NCBI RefSeq assembly: GCF_944393015.1 | Contig: NZ_CALXYQ010000015.1 | Coordinates: forward strand, 1-56,312 | Direction of reading: 5' to 3' | Source: an uncultured Brachyspira sp. | GTDB taxonomy: Bacteria > Spirochaetota > Brachyspiria > Brachyspirales > Brachyspiraceae | DNA: 56,312 bases | Shown here: positions 713 through 8,529 of the stretch, piece after piece | Layout of the letters: each line of letters opens with the position of its first letter | Position numbering within the stretch: the stretch's first letter is position 1 | Notes under the pieces: model-generated | Databases searched by the model: none | Seen by the model: the letters and a program-made list of their open reading frames with translations, nothing else | What the model was told of the DNA's origin: nothing | Position numbers and translations under genes: made by a program

Positions 713-728
713 TCCTATAACTCTATAT

Positions 729-770
729 AAAAAAGGAGCTTAGCTTTTAATTAAGTTAAACTCCTTTTTT
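729..770 (-). terminator. terminator of the DUF262 operon
   Basis: A hairpin with arms AAAAAAGGAG and CTCCTTTTTT lies just downstream of the minus-strand gene ending at 796. Read on the minus strand it ends in a T-tract. It would also work on the plus strand. Confidence 0.7.
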
Positions 771-795
771 ATTTGTATTTTAGTTAATTATAATT

Positions 796-3165
796 TTAAT
801 ATTTATCAAAAAATTCTCTTTTAAGCACATCTTTATAATCCTTAAAAGTATAATTATTAAGACTTCTATATTCTTCTTTCAAAAAATCTTTATCTCCTTT
901 TTTAATTGTTAATTGATTCCATCTATCAAAATTTAAATTATAATCTTTATAGTAAATAGTTATTTCAAAACATCCGAAGTATTCTATTTTTTTCTTATCT
1001 CCTGACTGTAATTCATATGGAAGCTGATAATTATTTCTATCTTCACAATTATAATTAGATATTAAATACTTTATCAATTTATTTCTATATGAACCTATTA
1101 ATACTCTATCATTAGGGGATCTATATCTATAAACATAGAAATTTCCATAATCATTTTTTATATTATGAGCACCTTTTGCTTGCATCCAATTTTGTAAATC
1201 AGGTTCTTTATATAAAGCTTCATGTGCTATTTTTACTCTTTCTCTAAATGCTTCATTATTATCTATATTAATTTCAGAATTACGCTTAGTAGATTTCTCT
1301 AATTCTTTAATTAATTCTTCTTTATTTTTTGAATTATCAAACCAATATCTAATAATATTATTCATTAAATAACGTCCATCACTACTATAATCATAGTATT
1401 CTTTATATCGAATTAATATTTTTAGTGATTCTGTAGTATCTTTAAAGTTATCTGATAAATCCCAAAAATAATCTATTTTTGATATCAAAGCCCTTAAAAA
1501 TAAATGATTTTCTAAAAATTCTTCTTTTGTACCATTAGGACCAAATACTTTATACATCATTTTTTTTCTATGATTGAATTTGCCTATATCCATATTATCA
1601 TCAATTAAAAAATCTATATAACCTTTAAAAAATGGATGTTTTTCAGCTTCGGTAAAATATTTTTCCCAGTTGTTATTTGCAACTATAAACTTGCATTTTC
1701 TTCTTTCATATTGAACGGCTTCTTTTGATATTTCAGACTTTATTTTATTATTATCATCAGCTAAAAAATTATATATATTTGAATAATGTTCTGATAATTC
1801 ATAAAAAAGTTTTATTAGGCTTATATAAGAAGATTCATCTATATATGAATTTTCAGTTATATTCCATACTATTCTCATCCATTGTTTAAAAGATGTTTCA
1901 TTATATTTGAAATTATTTTTGTCAATATAAAATATTAAAGCAGAAAATATTATAATATCTTCATATTCATATTTTATTTTTGATAAAATATCATAATCAT
2001 TTTGATCCCATATAGGTTTAATAGTATTTAAAATGTTATTATTATATTCATTCTCTAAAAGATCTAATACTTTGAATATTATTTTAATTATATTTTTGTT
2101 TTCATCATAAGTTTCTTCAAATACATTAAAACTAGAATATTTATTTTTTTCATTTAGTTCTTCAAAACTTCCATTTTTTAAATATTTATTATAATATTTA
2201 TTATCGATTAATTTTTCATTACTTTCTTCATAATTTATTATAAAATATATTAATGTAATTCTATAGAAAAATTTAATGTATAAATCATCTAAGATAATAT
2301 TGTTTTGTTTATTTTTTTTATTATACTTTTCAGATAATTGCCAGAAAAAGTTTGTATATTTGTTATCTAAATCGCTTAATTGCTGCTGTATTGAACTATC
2401 TATTTTATTTTCATTACTTTTTATAAAATAATTAGTTAAATCAGCTTTAAAATTTTCAAAACTTGTTAAAGGCTTTCCTCTAGCATTCATTTTCAGATAA
2501 ATTTCATCAGTAAGTTTGAAATCTTCCAAAGGTAAAAAATAAAACTGTATTTTTTCTAAATTATAAAATAACTTAATAGAACTATTATCTTTCGTAATTT
2601 CATTATATTTTTCATCTATTTTATCTATCATATTAAGCATAGCTTTTATGGTAGGGTCATTTTCATTTGTAAACCAATAAAAATTTTTTATTATATTAGA
2701 TAATTTTACTTCATTATCTTCTTCACTTTTATCTAAATATTCATCATCATAATATTTTTTTATTTTTTCCATATTATCTATTATATTTTGGCAGAACTCT
2801 CTTGATGATACTCTTGTAGAATAAGTAAATTTATTTAAACATTCTATTTTGTTAAATTCATCTTTTGCTAATTCTCTCAATGCTATATACCAATGAAGCA
2901 AAAATAAAGTTGTAACTCTCTGCTGTCCGTCCAATAAATAAACTACATTTTTATCTACAGAGCCGTATATAAAATCTAACTCTAATTTTTTATCATCTTC
3001 TTTTAAACATTCAAATATTTTATCTAAAAATCTATTTGCTACTTCGCTTTCATTTTCTCTGCCCTGAGCATAATCTCTTTGTATCTTTGGTATTTCTATT
3101 CTAAAATTTTTTTCTATATTAAAAAATTCTATTAAACTTAAAGGTTTATTTAAATCATAATTCAT
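796..3165 (-). CDS. DUF262 domain protein (GmrS-like half of a paired restriction module)
   Basis: This 789-residue protein opens with the two hallmark motifs of the DUF262 family: IPKIQRDYAQG near residue 27 (the family pattern is IPxxQRxYxW) and LLDGQQRVTTLFLL near residue 78. DUF262 is the GmrS/ParB-like nucleotide-using domain of GmrSD-type modification-dependent restriction enzymes. I see no DUF1524 HNH-like motif in the C-terminal half, which is mostly helical and AT-biased. The gene lies 13 nt downstream of a second DUF262 gene that does carry DUF1524, so the two probably form one operon and one complex. The role in phage defence is inferred from the family. The start is ATG with a GGAG-type site just upstream. 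Confidence 0.8.
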   Translation of the reverse strand: MNYDLNKPLSLIEFFNIEKNFRIEIPKIQRDYAQGRENESEVANRFLDKIFECLKEDDKKLELDFIYGSVDKNVVYLLDGQQRVTTLFLLHWYIALRELAKDEFNKIECLNKFTYSTRVSSREFCQNIIDNMEKIKKYYDDEYLDKSEEDNEVKLSNIIKNFYWFTNENDPTIKAMLNMIDKIDEKYNEITKDNSSIKLFYNLEKIQFYFLPLEDFKLTDEIYLKMNARGKPLTSFENFKADLTNYFIKSNENKIDSSIQQQLSDLDNKYTNFFWQLSEKYNKKNKQNNIILDDLYIKFFYRITLIYFIINYEESNEKLIDNKYYNKYLKNGSFEELNEKNKYSSFNVFEETYDENKNIIKIIFKVLDLLENEYNNNILNTIKPIWDQNDYDILSKIKYEYEDIIIFSALIFYIDKNNFKYNETSFKQWMRIVWNITENSYIDESSYISLIKLFYELSEHYSNIYNFLADDNNKIKSEISKEAVQYERRKCKFIVANNNWEKYFTEAEKHPFFKGYIDFLIDDNMDIGKFNHRKKMMYKVFGPNGTKEEFLENHLFLRALISKIDYFWDLSDNFKDTTESLKILIRYKEYYDYSSDGRYLMNNIIRYWFDNSKNKEELIKELEKSTKRNSEINIDNNEAFRERVKIAHEALYKEPDLQNWMQAKGAHNIKNDYGNFYVYRYRSPNDRVLIGSYRNKLIKYLISNYNCEDRNNYQLPYELQSGDKKKIEYFGCFEITIYYKDYNLNFDRWNQLTIKKGDKDFLKEEYRSLNNYTFKDYKDVLKREFFDKY

Positions 3166-3178
3166 AATATAATCTCCT

Positions 3179-5095
3179 TTATTTTGTTAAAAATTTTTCT
3201 AGTGTTTTATATATATCTTGCTCATATTTAACAGCATCTATTTTTGTCCATTGATGTACACTAGATGTTTCTATACTTTCATCAAAATATTTTAAAAATA
3301 CATATTTAGTACATATAGGAATAAAATTCTCGTTATTATTTTTATCTTTCTCTATTATTATTTTTCTTTTAATAGCAAAGAATGCATTATGATATTCTCT
3401 ATTGGTTTTACTATCAAGCAATACTAAATTACCTAAATAATCTTTTAATTCTTCATCTATAATATTTTCATCATTAGAAAATTTATTTTTTATTTTTTTA
3501 TATAAATCCGATAATTTTTTATTTCTATTTTTATCATTATTTTTTATATTTTTAAATTCATTATTTAAAGTATTTAATTCATTTTTTACATATTCATTTT
3601 CTAATATACTTTTTATGTACCCTTCTAATTTATCTTCAGACTGTGGCGTTTTAGGCTCTATATGTTCAATATCCCATTCTTGTTTTCTAAATAAATAAAA
3701 AGGAAATTTTGAATAAGAATTATTGTTTTTTATCATATACTCTATATTATAGAGTAAAAGCAGCATTTTTATATTATCTCTAGTTTTATTATCATAGTAA
3801 ATATTACACTTATTATTTTCATTATAATATTTAATGTTTTTTAATATTAACTTTATTCTATCACTTAATTTATTATGGAACTCTATTTTTGTATTATTAG
3901 TATACAAATTATATAATTCAATTATATCTTTTTTTGTATCTTTAGACCAATATATAATATATCCAATATAATGATAAAGAGTTAAATCATTATACCATTT
4001 ATTCATAGCATAAAAAGAATATCTTATTTCTTTCCAAGTATCTTCCATAAAAGACATTTTATTTTTATTCTCCTTCCACTTTTTGTAAAAATATCTGAAA
4101 GTTTTATAATTATCTTCACCTATTTCATTTAATAATTTTTTTATTTCATTTTTATCTTTTTTATTACTTTCTTCTAATAGCGATTTATTAAATACTATTT
4201 CAAAAATATAGTCTATCCTATTATATTTTTTATCCATATCATTATTAATGAATCCCCAAAATCTATTATCCTGCAATGTATTTTCTATATAATCCCATTC
4301 GCTTGCAATTTCTATTTGAGTATGTTCATATAAAGCTTCATCAAAATTTTCATTATGTTTGAAATTAGCTTTCTGTAAAAATAAAGCTTTAATAAGTTCA
4401 GAATTAGTAAGAGGAATTTTTCCTATATTTATTCTTGTGAAAATTTCTATAGGATTAGCATTATGATTAGGTTCAGGTTCATACCATATAAATTGTACTT
4501 TTTCTCCATCCAATAGAATATCTTTTATTATTTCTTCTATGCCTTTGTTTTCATCTTTACCTTTATTTTCTTTATTGCTTTCAAACCATTTTTTTATTGT
4601 ATGATATGCATTATAGATATATTCAAAATCGATATGTGTTATGTATTGTTCTTTTTCGGACAATTCTTTATCTGTTAATGTTTCTTCCAAAAAAATTTTA
4701 GAATCTTTCCTTGTACTATAAGTTATTGTGTATATATTTTCTTTAATAATATTCTTACTTTTTAAATATTTTAATATTAAATAAATTGTAGTTAATCTCT
4801 GCTGTCCGTCTATAACTTCATATACGTTATTTTTATCTTTAAGTCCTAATTCATTTAATTCTTTTTCATCTGATATTTTTTTTAATACAAGGGGCTGAAG
4901 ACAATAAAAGCCTTCATTATTATTTTGATGAAACTCATAAATATCGTTGAGCAAATCGTTTACCTGTATTTCGTCCCATCTATACCCTCGCTGATAACTA
5001 GGTATAACGAAATTATAATTATTGTTTAATAAATATTTCACTGTAAGCATTTCTACAGACTTATTATTATTTTCTTGATTAGTTTGTTCTGACAT
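3179..5095 (-). CDS. DUF262-DUF1524 protein (GmrSD-like)
   Basis: The first motif VIPSYQRGYRW and the second EVIDGQQRLTTIYL mark an N-terminal DUF262 domain. The C-terminal third contains EWDIEHIEPKTP and LGNLVLLDSKTNREYHN, which match the DUF1524 (HNH-like nuclease) pattern of GmrD. A single chain with both domains resembles GmrSD, SspE and BrxU-type enzymes that cleave modified phage DNA. I chose the ATG at 5095 (MSEQTNQ) because AAGGAT lies about 6 nt upstream. A longer frame exists to 5179, but its extra residues look like noncoding DNA. A TATACT -10-like box is at 5129-5134 on the minus strand. The second DUF262 gene follows 13 nt downstream. Confidence 0.82.
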   Translation of the reverse strand: MSEQTNQENNNKSVEMLTVKYLLNNNYNFVIPSYQRGYRWDEIQVNDLLNDIYEFHQNNNEGFYCLQPLVLKKISDEKELNELGLKDKNNVYEVIDGQQRLTTIYLILKYLKSKNIIKENIYTITYSTRKDSKIFLEETLTDKELSEKEQYITHIDFEYIYNAYHTIKKWFESNKENKGKDENKGIEEIIKDILLDGEKVQFIWYEPEPNHNANPIEIFTRINIGKIPLTNSELIKALFLQKANFKHNENFDEALYEHTQIEIASEWDYIENTLQDNRFWGFINNDMDKKYNRIDYIFEIVFNKSLLEESNKKDKNEIKKLLNEIGEDNYKTFRYFYKKWKENKNKMSFMEDTWKEIRYSFYAMNKWYNDLTLYHYIGYIIYWSKDTKKDIIELYNLYTNNTKIEFHNKLSDRIKLILKNIKYYNENNKCNIYYDNKTRDNIKMLLLLYNIEYMIKNNNSYSKFPFYLFRKQEWDIEHIEPKTPQSEDKLEGYIKSILENEYVKNELNTLNNEFKNIKNNDKNRNKKLSDLYKKIKNKFSNDENIIDEELKDYLGNLVLLDSKTNREYHNAFFAIKRKIIIEKDKNNNENFIPICTKYVFLKYFDESIETSSVHQWTKIDAVKYEQDIYKTLEKFLTK

Positions 5096-5213
5096 ATAAT
5101 AATCCTTAAAACTAAGTATACGCCATATAGTATAACACATTTTTACGACAAAAACTGTCACGAATGTTGTTTTTTGCATATAAAGTAATATTTTGTGAGA
5201 AAAAATTAAATAA

Positions 5214-5294
5214 TTATCTGTTCTCGCTTCTGAATTTGGCGGGGTCTGTGAATGGGCGTCTGCCTTGAAATTTCGATGAATAAACTATATTGCT
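5214..5294 (-). pseudogene. 3'-end remnant of a staphylococcal-nuclease-like gene
   Basis: Read on the minus strand, this gives the last 26 codons plus stop of the same protein encoded in full at 7600-8529. It ends KFQGRRPFTDPAKFRSENR and differs from the intact copy at only one of the 26 residues (S for L). DNA similarity fades beyond 5294, where the promoter of the rrf2 gene begins. The rrf2-hcp pair is therefore flanked by a direct repeat of this nuclease 3' end. It is a decayed duplicate or an insertion scar, not a functional gene. Confidence 0.8.
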
Positions 5295-7573: not shown

Positions 7574-7599
7574 TATAAAAAAGTATAATAAAAAAAATA

Positions 7600-8529
7600 T
7601 TATCTGTTTTCACTTCTAAATTTTGCTGGATCAGTGAATGGACGTCTGCCTTGAAATTTGGATAAATAAACTATATTGCTCGCTATATTTACAAAGCCGT
7701 TATCTCCGTATTTCATTATGGTTTCTTTGGCTTGCTTGTCTTTCATCATAGGATATGCTAATGGAATATCATCTATAAATAAATGACATAGTATACGCCC
7801 GAAAGCATCATAAGAGCCTACAAGCATGCTGACATTTGAAGCATTATTAATTTTGTTTTCAACATAGGCTTTAACATTGGTTCCATAGTTCTGCTTTAGT
7901 TCTGGTGCATCGAGTCCTATGAATCTGTAATAATTGTCTTTGTATTTTATAGTGTCGCCGTCTACCACTCTTATAGAATTTTTATCGAGGGCTTTTAAAT
8001 ATTTTGACAGCTCTTTATTGTAGTTGGAATCTATATTATAAAAATCTTTATTTGTAAATGATAGAAAAAGTTTTGTATTATAAGAATCTTTTAAAGTTAA
8101 ATATTCATCACTGTTTATATCGTCAATATTCAAAATCACATGGCTATAATGAATTTTAAAAAATCTAAGTTTATCAATCAGCTTATCATCGCTAGCATAA
8201 AACATAATTTTGTCTTTGAAAAATAAAGTATAAAAAATTAGTTTGAACTTGCCTATAAATTTTATGCTTGGAAAATGAGTTTTTATATATTTTTTATCAT
8301 CATTTTCAGCATACAATACATAAACTTTATCTCTGTTTTTTATATAATCATATATAATGCTTGCTTTATTATTTTCTATCATGCTTATTATTGATTTTGA
8401 GTCAATGATTAAATCTTTGCTTTCTTTAAGATTAGAAGTTTTTATAATAAAAATAAAAGCAAATATTATAATGACAGTATAAATACAAGCCTTTATAATC
8501 TTTTCATTTTTTTGATTAGAAGTTCGCAT
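7600..8529 (-). CDS. membrane-anchored staphylococcal-nuclease-like protein
   Basis: The 309-residue protein has one N-terminal membrane helix (about residues 13-30) and a C-terminal SNase domain starting at RVVDGDT (residue 187). The catalytic residues of the family are all present: R202 and E210 in RFIGLDAPE and R245 in DAFGR. Activity as a surface or periplasmic nuclease is therefore plausible. The middle region (about 40-180) is not recognised. The start overlaps the 3' end of thiE by 37 nt, indicating translational coupling, and GAGGA lies about 12 nt upstream. A copy of its last 26 codons sits at 5214-5294. Confidence 0.8.
   Translation of the reverse strand: MRTSNQKNEKIIKACIYTVIIIFAFIFIIKTSNLKESKDLIIDSKSIISMIENNKASIIYDYIKNRDKVYVLYAENDDKKYIKTHFPSIKFIGKFKLIFYTLFFKDKIMFYASDDKLIDKLRFFKIHYSHVILNIDDINSDEYLTLKDSYNTKLFLSFTNKDFYNIDSNYNKELSKYLKALDKNSIRVVDGDTIKYKDNYYRFIGLDAPELKQNYGTNVKAYVENKINNASNVSMLVGSYDAFGRILCHLFIDDIPLAYPMMKDKQAKETIMKYGDNGFVNIASNIVYLSKFQGRRPFTDPAKFRSENR

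Follow-up and report, generated by a model that had tools for sequence, protein, structure and literature searches.

Restriction systems built from two DUF262 proteins are described as unusual and their mechanism as incompletely understood in the part of a review that deals with them (PMC12409362). In GrwAB, encoded on VSP-II of the WASA lineage of Vibrio cholerae, GrwA consists of a DUF262 and a DUF1524 domain and GrwB of a DUF262 domain and a long uncharacterised part; the two genes are both reported to be required, as are their DGQQR motifs and the residues R81, R86, H431, N521 and N530, and the system restricts Tevenvirinae and Queuovirinae, with escapers mapping to the DNA-modification gene dpdA and homologues present in about 1% of genomes (PMC12137116). 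In TgvAB, encoded on VPI-2 of V. cholerae, TgvA carries DUF262 and TgvB carries DUF262 plus DUF1524, both are needed, and 1,341 matches were found in 41,142 genomes (PMC11411939); GrwB and TgvA have been called distinct outside DUF262 (PMC12137116). In some GmrSD systems the GmrS and GmrD domains have also been reported to come from distant sources (PMC4619093). Here we analysed 56,312 bases of an uncultured Brachyspira sp. (contig NZ_CALXYQ010000015.1, positions 1 to 56,312; this whole stretch is called the window), which carry two adjacent DUF262 genes that we name A and B. Judging from sequence features we regard this pair, with a probability of roughly 0.8, as a type IV (modification-dependent) restriction system that is encoded by two genes and belongs to the GrwAB type. 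The two-gene arrangement as such is already published (GrwAB, PMC12137116); the new element is that the region of B beyond DUF262 is modular and has been exchanged between systems, with A and the DUF262 domain of B travelling together. A search confined to Creative Commons-licensed PubMed Central literature found no earlier description of B-type proteins that exchange modules.

Both genes lie on the minus strand and together occupy positions 5095–796. Gene A (3179..5095, 638 aa) is GrwA-like by reading frame, Pfam match, alignment and model, with a DUF262 (GmrSD_N) domain as putative nucleoside triphosphatase (NTPase) and sensor, a helical linker and a C-terminal His-Me (DUF1524-type) nuclease; its likely start is the ATG at 5095 with AAGGATT ahead of it. 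Gene B (796..3165, 789 aa) starts at 3165, 13 bases past the stop of A and preceded by AAAGGAG, and is GrwB-like by reading frame, Pfam match, alignment and pattern scan, with some 540 residues beyond its DUF262 domain in which there is no nuclease domain. The N-termini match PF03235 (GmrSD_N) with 113.7 bits in A and 78.6 bits in B, the cut-off being 33.2. Within the DUF262 domain of A (4376..5038) we located QR (Q35-R36), DGQQR (D96-R100) and FxxxN (F219/N223), all invariant in the alignment of A proteins (A3), and from the alignment columns QR (Q29-R30), DGQQR (D79-R83) and Y223xxxN227 in that of B (2437..3126). Thus the first-pass annotation was right in describing two DUF262 proteins that both have QR and DGQQR. 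The nucleotide-binding motif, whose loss from one partner it had considered, is lost in neither, as DGQQR is kept in 161 of 165 unselected A frames of at least 500 residues and in 161 of 163 unselected B frames of at least 600 residues. The four A frames without it are from L028, L132 and L169, whose A is split in two, and from L120; the two B frames are a fragment from a disrupted gene in L067 and the masked frame of L075. Alignments A2 (the window's B plus 77 of 87 long B frames) and A3 (67 of 84 A frames that were long and scored well, plus the window's A) cannot show universal retention, because the frames behind both were preselected for a DGQQR-type motif and for length, and those of A also for score.

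The nuclease region of A (3365..3667) was identified from invariant columns and the predicted fold and contains E477-H478, N556, N565 and K576; the stretch from H to the first N holds a long insert. Among the 68 aligned A proteins, E477-H478, N556 and N565 are invariant in all 68, and PF07510 matches 53 of them at E ≤ 0.01, the window's protein being counted among the 68 and itself unmatched. When the same His-Me pattern was run on unselected frames it was found in 102 of 165 A and in 0 of 163 B frames, and a looser pattern in 161/165 and 3/163, respectively. The AlphaFold model of A (mean pLDDT, the predicted local confidence, 90.1) places H478 at a strand end, N556 before the next strand and N565 in the helix after it, which agrees with the His-Me nuclease as described in the available text of PMC11411939. 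The claim that only one of the two proteins has a DUF1524-type nuclease therefore stands for both genes, as B lacks a PF07510 match in the window as well as in all 19 members of alignment A1 (0/19). The only PF07510 match in the window's genome is on another contig (G000:C38:1920-2225), in a 215-residue frame without a PF03235 match.

The best solved structures found with Foldseek for the model of A are DndI (9jfl, E 4.6e-8) and SspE, both at significant E-values but at TM-scores of no more than 0.26–0.29 over the whole chain; a profile search agrees with this result and adds HEC-06 and, weakly, BrxU. These matches would suit a pair that senses phosphorothioate marks of the host like SspE or DndI, instead of modified phage DNA, but we consider this very unlikely: the single-chain layout of SspE and DndI does not suit a two-protein pair, a DndB homologue was not found in the genome in a search made for this one family and not for the other ssp and dnd genes, and the neighbours beyond A are genes for an Rrf2-type regulator and a prismane (Hcp-like) protein, followed further on by thiamine and lipoprotein enzymes. 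In a profile comparison of A with B only the DUF262 part aligns (hhalign probability 97.5).

Beyond its DUF262 domain, B can be divided into a helical middle module that aligns with the helical part of SspE (1726..2382, about residues 262–480; defined from the model, trees and DNA windows), a conserved block E487-K490...G515 (1621..1707), and a C-terminal module (796..1620, residues 516–789; model, identities and DNA windows), which occupies the nuclease position of the single-chain relatives. E487, K490 and G515 are invariant in A2. The model of B (mean pLDDT 79) is reliable as far as residue 560 or so and mostly of low quality from there on. Structure prediction, which the first-pass annotation had proposed for the pair and for the orphan C-terminal domain, was thus informative for A and of low confidence over much of the latter. 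Residues 1–470 of B were aligned by VIA-align with residues 1–562 of SspE (Z 14.3, root-mean-square deviation 10.6, 377 residues aligned), and the comparison, which covers mainly residues 9–477, gave Z 13.6 with DndI and a weaker Z 5.0 with BrxU; unrelated rows stay at Z ≤ 3.2, although a Z of about 13 in helical proteins can reflect a common arrangement. We read the predicted structure of B as DUF262 plus the helical part typical of the family, with another module in the place of the nuclease. Searches with B alone gave no match in phage records, PADLOC or PHROGs, no solved structure with the single sequence and nothing against genome contigs, where an alignment of relatives as query succeeded.

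Homologues of B were collected from 17 plasmid records, the best 80 of 146 genome loci, 21 viral contigs and the genomes of the window's genus plus one other family; some of these loci are the same sequence under different identifiers, and 156 B proteins were left after removal of near-identical ones. As the first-pass annotation had supposed, the genes are genuinely paired: at 171 of 173 B-bearing loci, A lies directly upstream of B on the same strand with the nuclease gene first, and the two loci without A upstream (L086 and L232) both run into contig ends. Counted per open frame of B, A is upstream in 172 of 174 cases, one broken B being counted twice. All these counts are conditional on B; there are also A-like proteins that lack a B, just as there are single-chain GmrSD relatives. 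The best 80 genome loci contributed 79 with A directly upstream, the remaining L086 beginning at the contig start, and in each of the 13 plasmid records inspected (of 17) a DUF262 gene, or in one case a split DUF262/hypothetical pair, directly precedes B. Among the 21 IMG/VR viral loci, 15 have the pair (L159–L173) and six weak matches (L174–L179) have A-like proteins only. According to the record titles the pair loci span many phyla. Thus a two-gene unit with intact active-site sets and almost absolute linkage and order across phyla is evident. That A and B are independent DUF262 enzymes merely standing side by side is highly improbable to us: A alone does have the full single-chain layout of DUF262, linker and nuclease, but the constant order at 171/173 loci in many phyla speaks against independence, as do the 13-base gap with a ribosome site of its own for B and the requirement for both genes reported for GrwAB and TgvAB (PMC12137116, PMC11411939). 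The constant partner also speaks against A sufficing alone.

The 13 strong contigs from the viral collection (L159–L171) carry a complete or cut pair, and therefore the pair probably also travels on prophages. A WYL-domain regulator gene is found near the pair in L003, L004, L031 and L032, and a 3'-5' exonuclease gene directly upstream of A in L031 and L032. In the window's genus, A is broken into several frames in L060, L064, L066, L067 and L069, with B broken as well in L067 and L069, which points to frequent inactivity or decay of the system.

The exchange within B became visible in the comparison with a relative from genome G015 (L058), whose residues 1–240 of B are 74–97% identical to the window whereas the remainder is only 20–40% identical. 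At the DNA level the identity is 94–95% from 2700 to 2501, 77% at the junction (2400..2500, about residues 222–256) and 45–61% from 2400 to the end of B, the drop in B falling just past the conserved KMNARGKPLTSFENFKA stretch, and A of L058 is 68% identical to the window's A over its length. L059 also has a window-type DUF262 domain, and it shares the middle part of B with L058 (75%), both sharing it also with L064 and L069. The window, L058 and L059 form a clade in the trees of the DUF262 domain of B (98/99), the DUF262 domain of A (98/96) and the C-terminal part of A (99/99); of the donors of B modules only L065 and L069 have an A that could be used in the A trees. In the C-terminal tree of B, however, L058 and L059 group with L064/L065/L066/L069 (100/100), L058 standing next to L064, and the window groups with L079/L080 (98/98). 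Forcing the window and L058 together in this tree costs 211 log-likelihood units (p of the approximately unbiased test, p-AU, 0.00014) and forcing the window, L058 and L059 together costs 257 units (p-AU 0.022), and L058 and L059 alone as a clade are also rejected (p-AU 0.0007); the groups for these tests were picked after the identities had been seen, and the trees were computed under the simpler LG+G4 model.

In 75-base windows, B of L059 is a mosaic of three sources, with codons 1–225 like the window (79–95%), codons 251–550 like L069 (83–100%) and the part from codon 501 to the end like L065 (77–93%). DNA-window joints place the second exchange joint near the conserved E487-K490...G515 block. 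B of L069 itself is a broken copy that ends near the L069/L065 joint of this mosaic. An assembly chimera is unlikely for L058 because the same first joint is present there on a 226-kb contig in a genome of about 20 contigs. Silent B cassettes were not seen, the window's genome having one B match and two PF03235 matches, and exchange by local inversion is therefore unsupported here.

We then asked how far this pattern extends among the 156 B proteins. Of 58 pairs with at least 70% identity in DUF262, 22 have at most 45% in the middle module, but these are not diagnostic because a fast-evolving region could yield the same; the matching figure for A (144 proteins) is a dropped middle part in 1 of 29 pairs, a contrast that has to be read with the generally higher conservation of the middle part of A (median 27% versus 18%). 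Diagnostic of exchange is the reverse case, a middle part of at least 60% identity with DUF262 at 55% or below, which was found in 4 of 37 B pairs; 9 of 66 A pairs also show it, by small margins, and A is thus not fully free of discordance. That the loss of similarity inside B merely reflects faster evolution of an unconstrained region is an explanation to which we give almost no weight. The family-wide median pair identities of 18% and 16% beyond DUF262, as opposed to 42% within it, would fit it, as would several pairs outside the genus that show a gradient only, but a difference in rate could not by itself leave the faster region of a pair more similar than the slower one, nor does it account for the three-source mosaic or for the strong conflict between the trees of A and the B DUF262 domain and the C-terminal tree of B. 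Exchange of B modules is thus firmly established for this one genus and no more than suggested beyond it: the two C-terminal modules of B have moved between lineages while A and the DUF262 domain of B stayed together.

Some further candidates were not counted. L103 against L092/L124 groups weakly in the B DUF262 tree (54/9) and its A conflicts as well, and L071 against L070/L072 shows a gradual drop with p-AU 0.06–0.08. The high C-terminal values that L068 and L073 reach against L075, together with low values in DUF262, are spurious, being caused by a stretch of undetermined bases in L075. In A itself, the DNA identity to L059 dips to 58–61% at 4501–4700 of the window (about residues 133–198), between blocks of 70–95% and 90%, which is possibly a further exchanged patch in its DUF262 domain.

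In the mechanism that we propose, A and B would form a complex through their DUF262 and helical parts, in which B would be the obligate partner of the nuclease-bearing A, and this complex would scan incoming DNA for hypermodified bases. The DUF262 domains of both proteins would bind and hydrolyse nucleoside triphosphates, and recognition together with this turnover in both domains would release the nuclease of A, which would then cut phage DNA. From the features of the locus we infer that this copy restricts phages, that modified DNA is its target and that the exchanged modules of B set recognition.

In type I restriction, the partner without catalytic activity is HsdS, which has, besides its fixed parts, exchangeable modules that are separated by conserved blocks, and exchange of its modules changes the sequence that is methylated and restricted. 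By analogy we propose that B may work in the same way, with a fixed docking and NTPase domain and swappable specificity modules. More generally, GrwB-type proteins could be specificity subunits that evolve like HsdS, their DUF262 domain staying matched to the nuclease and the middle and C-terminal modules being swapped separately at two conserved joints, giving rise to new modified-DNA targets; this we put forward tentatively, at slightly less than even odds. It is also possible, although we rather doubt it, that B is a scaffold or regulator whose variable C-terminal modules change in order to escape phage inhibitors of the IPI* kind rather than to alter which DNA is targeted. Both two-protein papers leave room for a partner that overcomes phage anti-defences (PMC11411939, PMC12137116), and an arms race with inhibitors would explain the fast change and the module replacement in B just as well. 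However, the exchanged part of B includes the helical region that joins sensor and nuclease in SspE-like enzymes, and with both DUF262 domains conserved a role in reading the target fits at least as well. The module exchange in the C-terminal region of B lends some support to a role in specificity over one in regulation alone. The first-pass annotation had suggested that an extra DUF262 subunit may regulate or widen the sensing of modified phage DNA; of this the paired two-protein system with one nuclease holds, and the regulating or widening of target sensing is unproved.

How GmrSD-like enzymes recognise modified DNA and why GrwAB and TgvAB depend on a second DUF262 protein are named as open questions in PMC11411939, PMC12137116 and PMC12409362. 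The natural chimeras, in which the nuclease gene and the DUF262 domain of B are kept and the rest of B is replaced, are ready-made experiments for this purpose. If the target follows the B module, the recognition element would be located and could be exchanged on purpose.

The chromosomal site of the pair was compared within the genus. The flanking rrf2-hcp DNA matches all 26 genus genomes searched, many of the matches being partial, and the site was scored in the 13 genomes where rrf2 and hcp could be placed, with G009 left out. The pair is directly beside rrf2 in six genomes (the window's own G000, G020, G003, G017, G023 and G024), of which G020 has A only before its contig ends, and the A alleles at this site are 34–88% identical to the window's A. 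From the rrf2-hcp site of the other seven it is absent: rrf2 is directly adjoined in G004 and G019 by the neighbour found beside the pair in G003 and G023, and in G016 by the one found beside it in G017 and G024, whereas G007, G011, G022 and G025 have other genes at the site. G016, G019, G022 and G025 carry a pair elsewhere. The occurrence on plasmids and in IMG/VR and the presence or absence at one site are as expected for a mobile defence unit, and since the pair comes and goes at one site among related species, hosts can change the whole system besides its modules. A 94-base direct repeat (84%) at 5201–5294 and 7587–7680, with only these two copies in the genome, was observed at this site; its copy between A and the Rrf2 gene duplicates the 3' end of the gene at 7600–8529, and the same duplicate appears at the pair loci listed for G020, G017 and G024, but not at those for G003 and G023.

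On the other side, B ends 796 bases from the contig end and the far flank of the pair is off the contig. Just 3' of B lies a hairpin with a terminal U run (715..800), a probable transcription end, which folds with z -5.1 and was equalled by 0 of 200 shuffles; a consensus terminator scan listed no terminator, including at this hairpin. Promoter-like sites were at chance level (56 observed, 49.6 expected) and no promoter is therefore claimed. Two nearly identical 40-base repeats (279–318 and 526–565, 95%) at the contig end beside B are possibly the cause of the assembly stop.

Some points weigh against the assignment of the pair to the GrwAB type and against the modular view of B. The window's A has no PF07510 match of its own and was missed when the whole genome was searched with this family. 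The third motif of B reads YxxxN throughout the aligned B proteins (78/78), FxxxN being given in the GrwAB paper, and the link to GrwAB is drawn from layout and residue spacing, compared with published positions. For the C-terminal module of B no DNA-binding fold is claimed, because its model is of low confidence over much of its length. Finally, all four reverse-case pairs of B are between L058 or L059 and L064 or L069, and thus from this genus only.

Among the known systems, GrwAB resembles A and B most closely, as it also consists of adjacent genes on the same strand, the first encoding the nuclease protein with DUF262, linker and His-Me domain and the second a long-tailed DUF262 partner without DUF1524, with QR and DGQQR in both proteins. 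The N-to-N distance is 9 in 68/68 aligned A proteins as in GrwA (N521/N530), and the H-to-first-N distance ranges from 61 to 116 in these 68 proteins. GrwA with 90 falls into this range, although it differs from the window with 78; the third motif of B, which a figure legend of PMC12137116 gives as FxxxN for both proteins and which is YxxxN here, differs as well. Six of the 68 A proteins are within 8 residues of GrwA on both the R-to-H and H-to-N spacings, and in L119 from Mixta theicola the R-to-H, H-to-N and N-to-N spacings are 350, 89 and 9 compared to 350, 90 and 9 in GrwA, the motif arginine of its B being at 81 (with the start chosen by us) compared to 86 in GrwB. The single-chain GmrSD enzymes Eco94GmrSD, BrxU, HEC-06, SspE and DndI have the same domain order as A but act as one protein, whereas A is accompanied by a second DUF262 protein. 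HsdS is comparable to B by analogy only and has no sequence relation to it. The extra DUF262 subunit that was suspected at first fits both GrwAB and TgvAB, for which both proteins and both DGQQR motifs are reported as required. TgvAB likewise has two DUF262 proteins of which only one has DUF1524, but tgvA without the nuclease comes first, as inferred from the construct in PMC11411939, the H-to-N distance of TgvB (31, H571/N602) is outside the range of the A family, and TgvAB is located in a type I restriction-modification operon, whereas no such genes were found on the readable flank of the pair, the other flank being off the contig. As the nuclease gene comes first and the H/N/N spacings fit GrwA over TgvB, we filed the pair as GrwAB-like, TgvAB being a more distant analogue than GrwAB.

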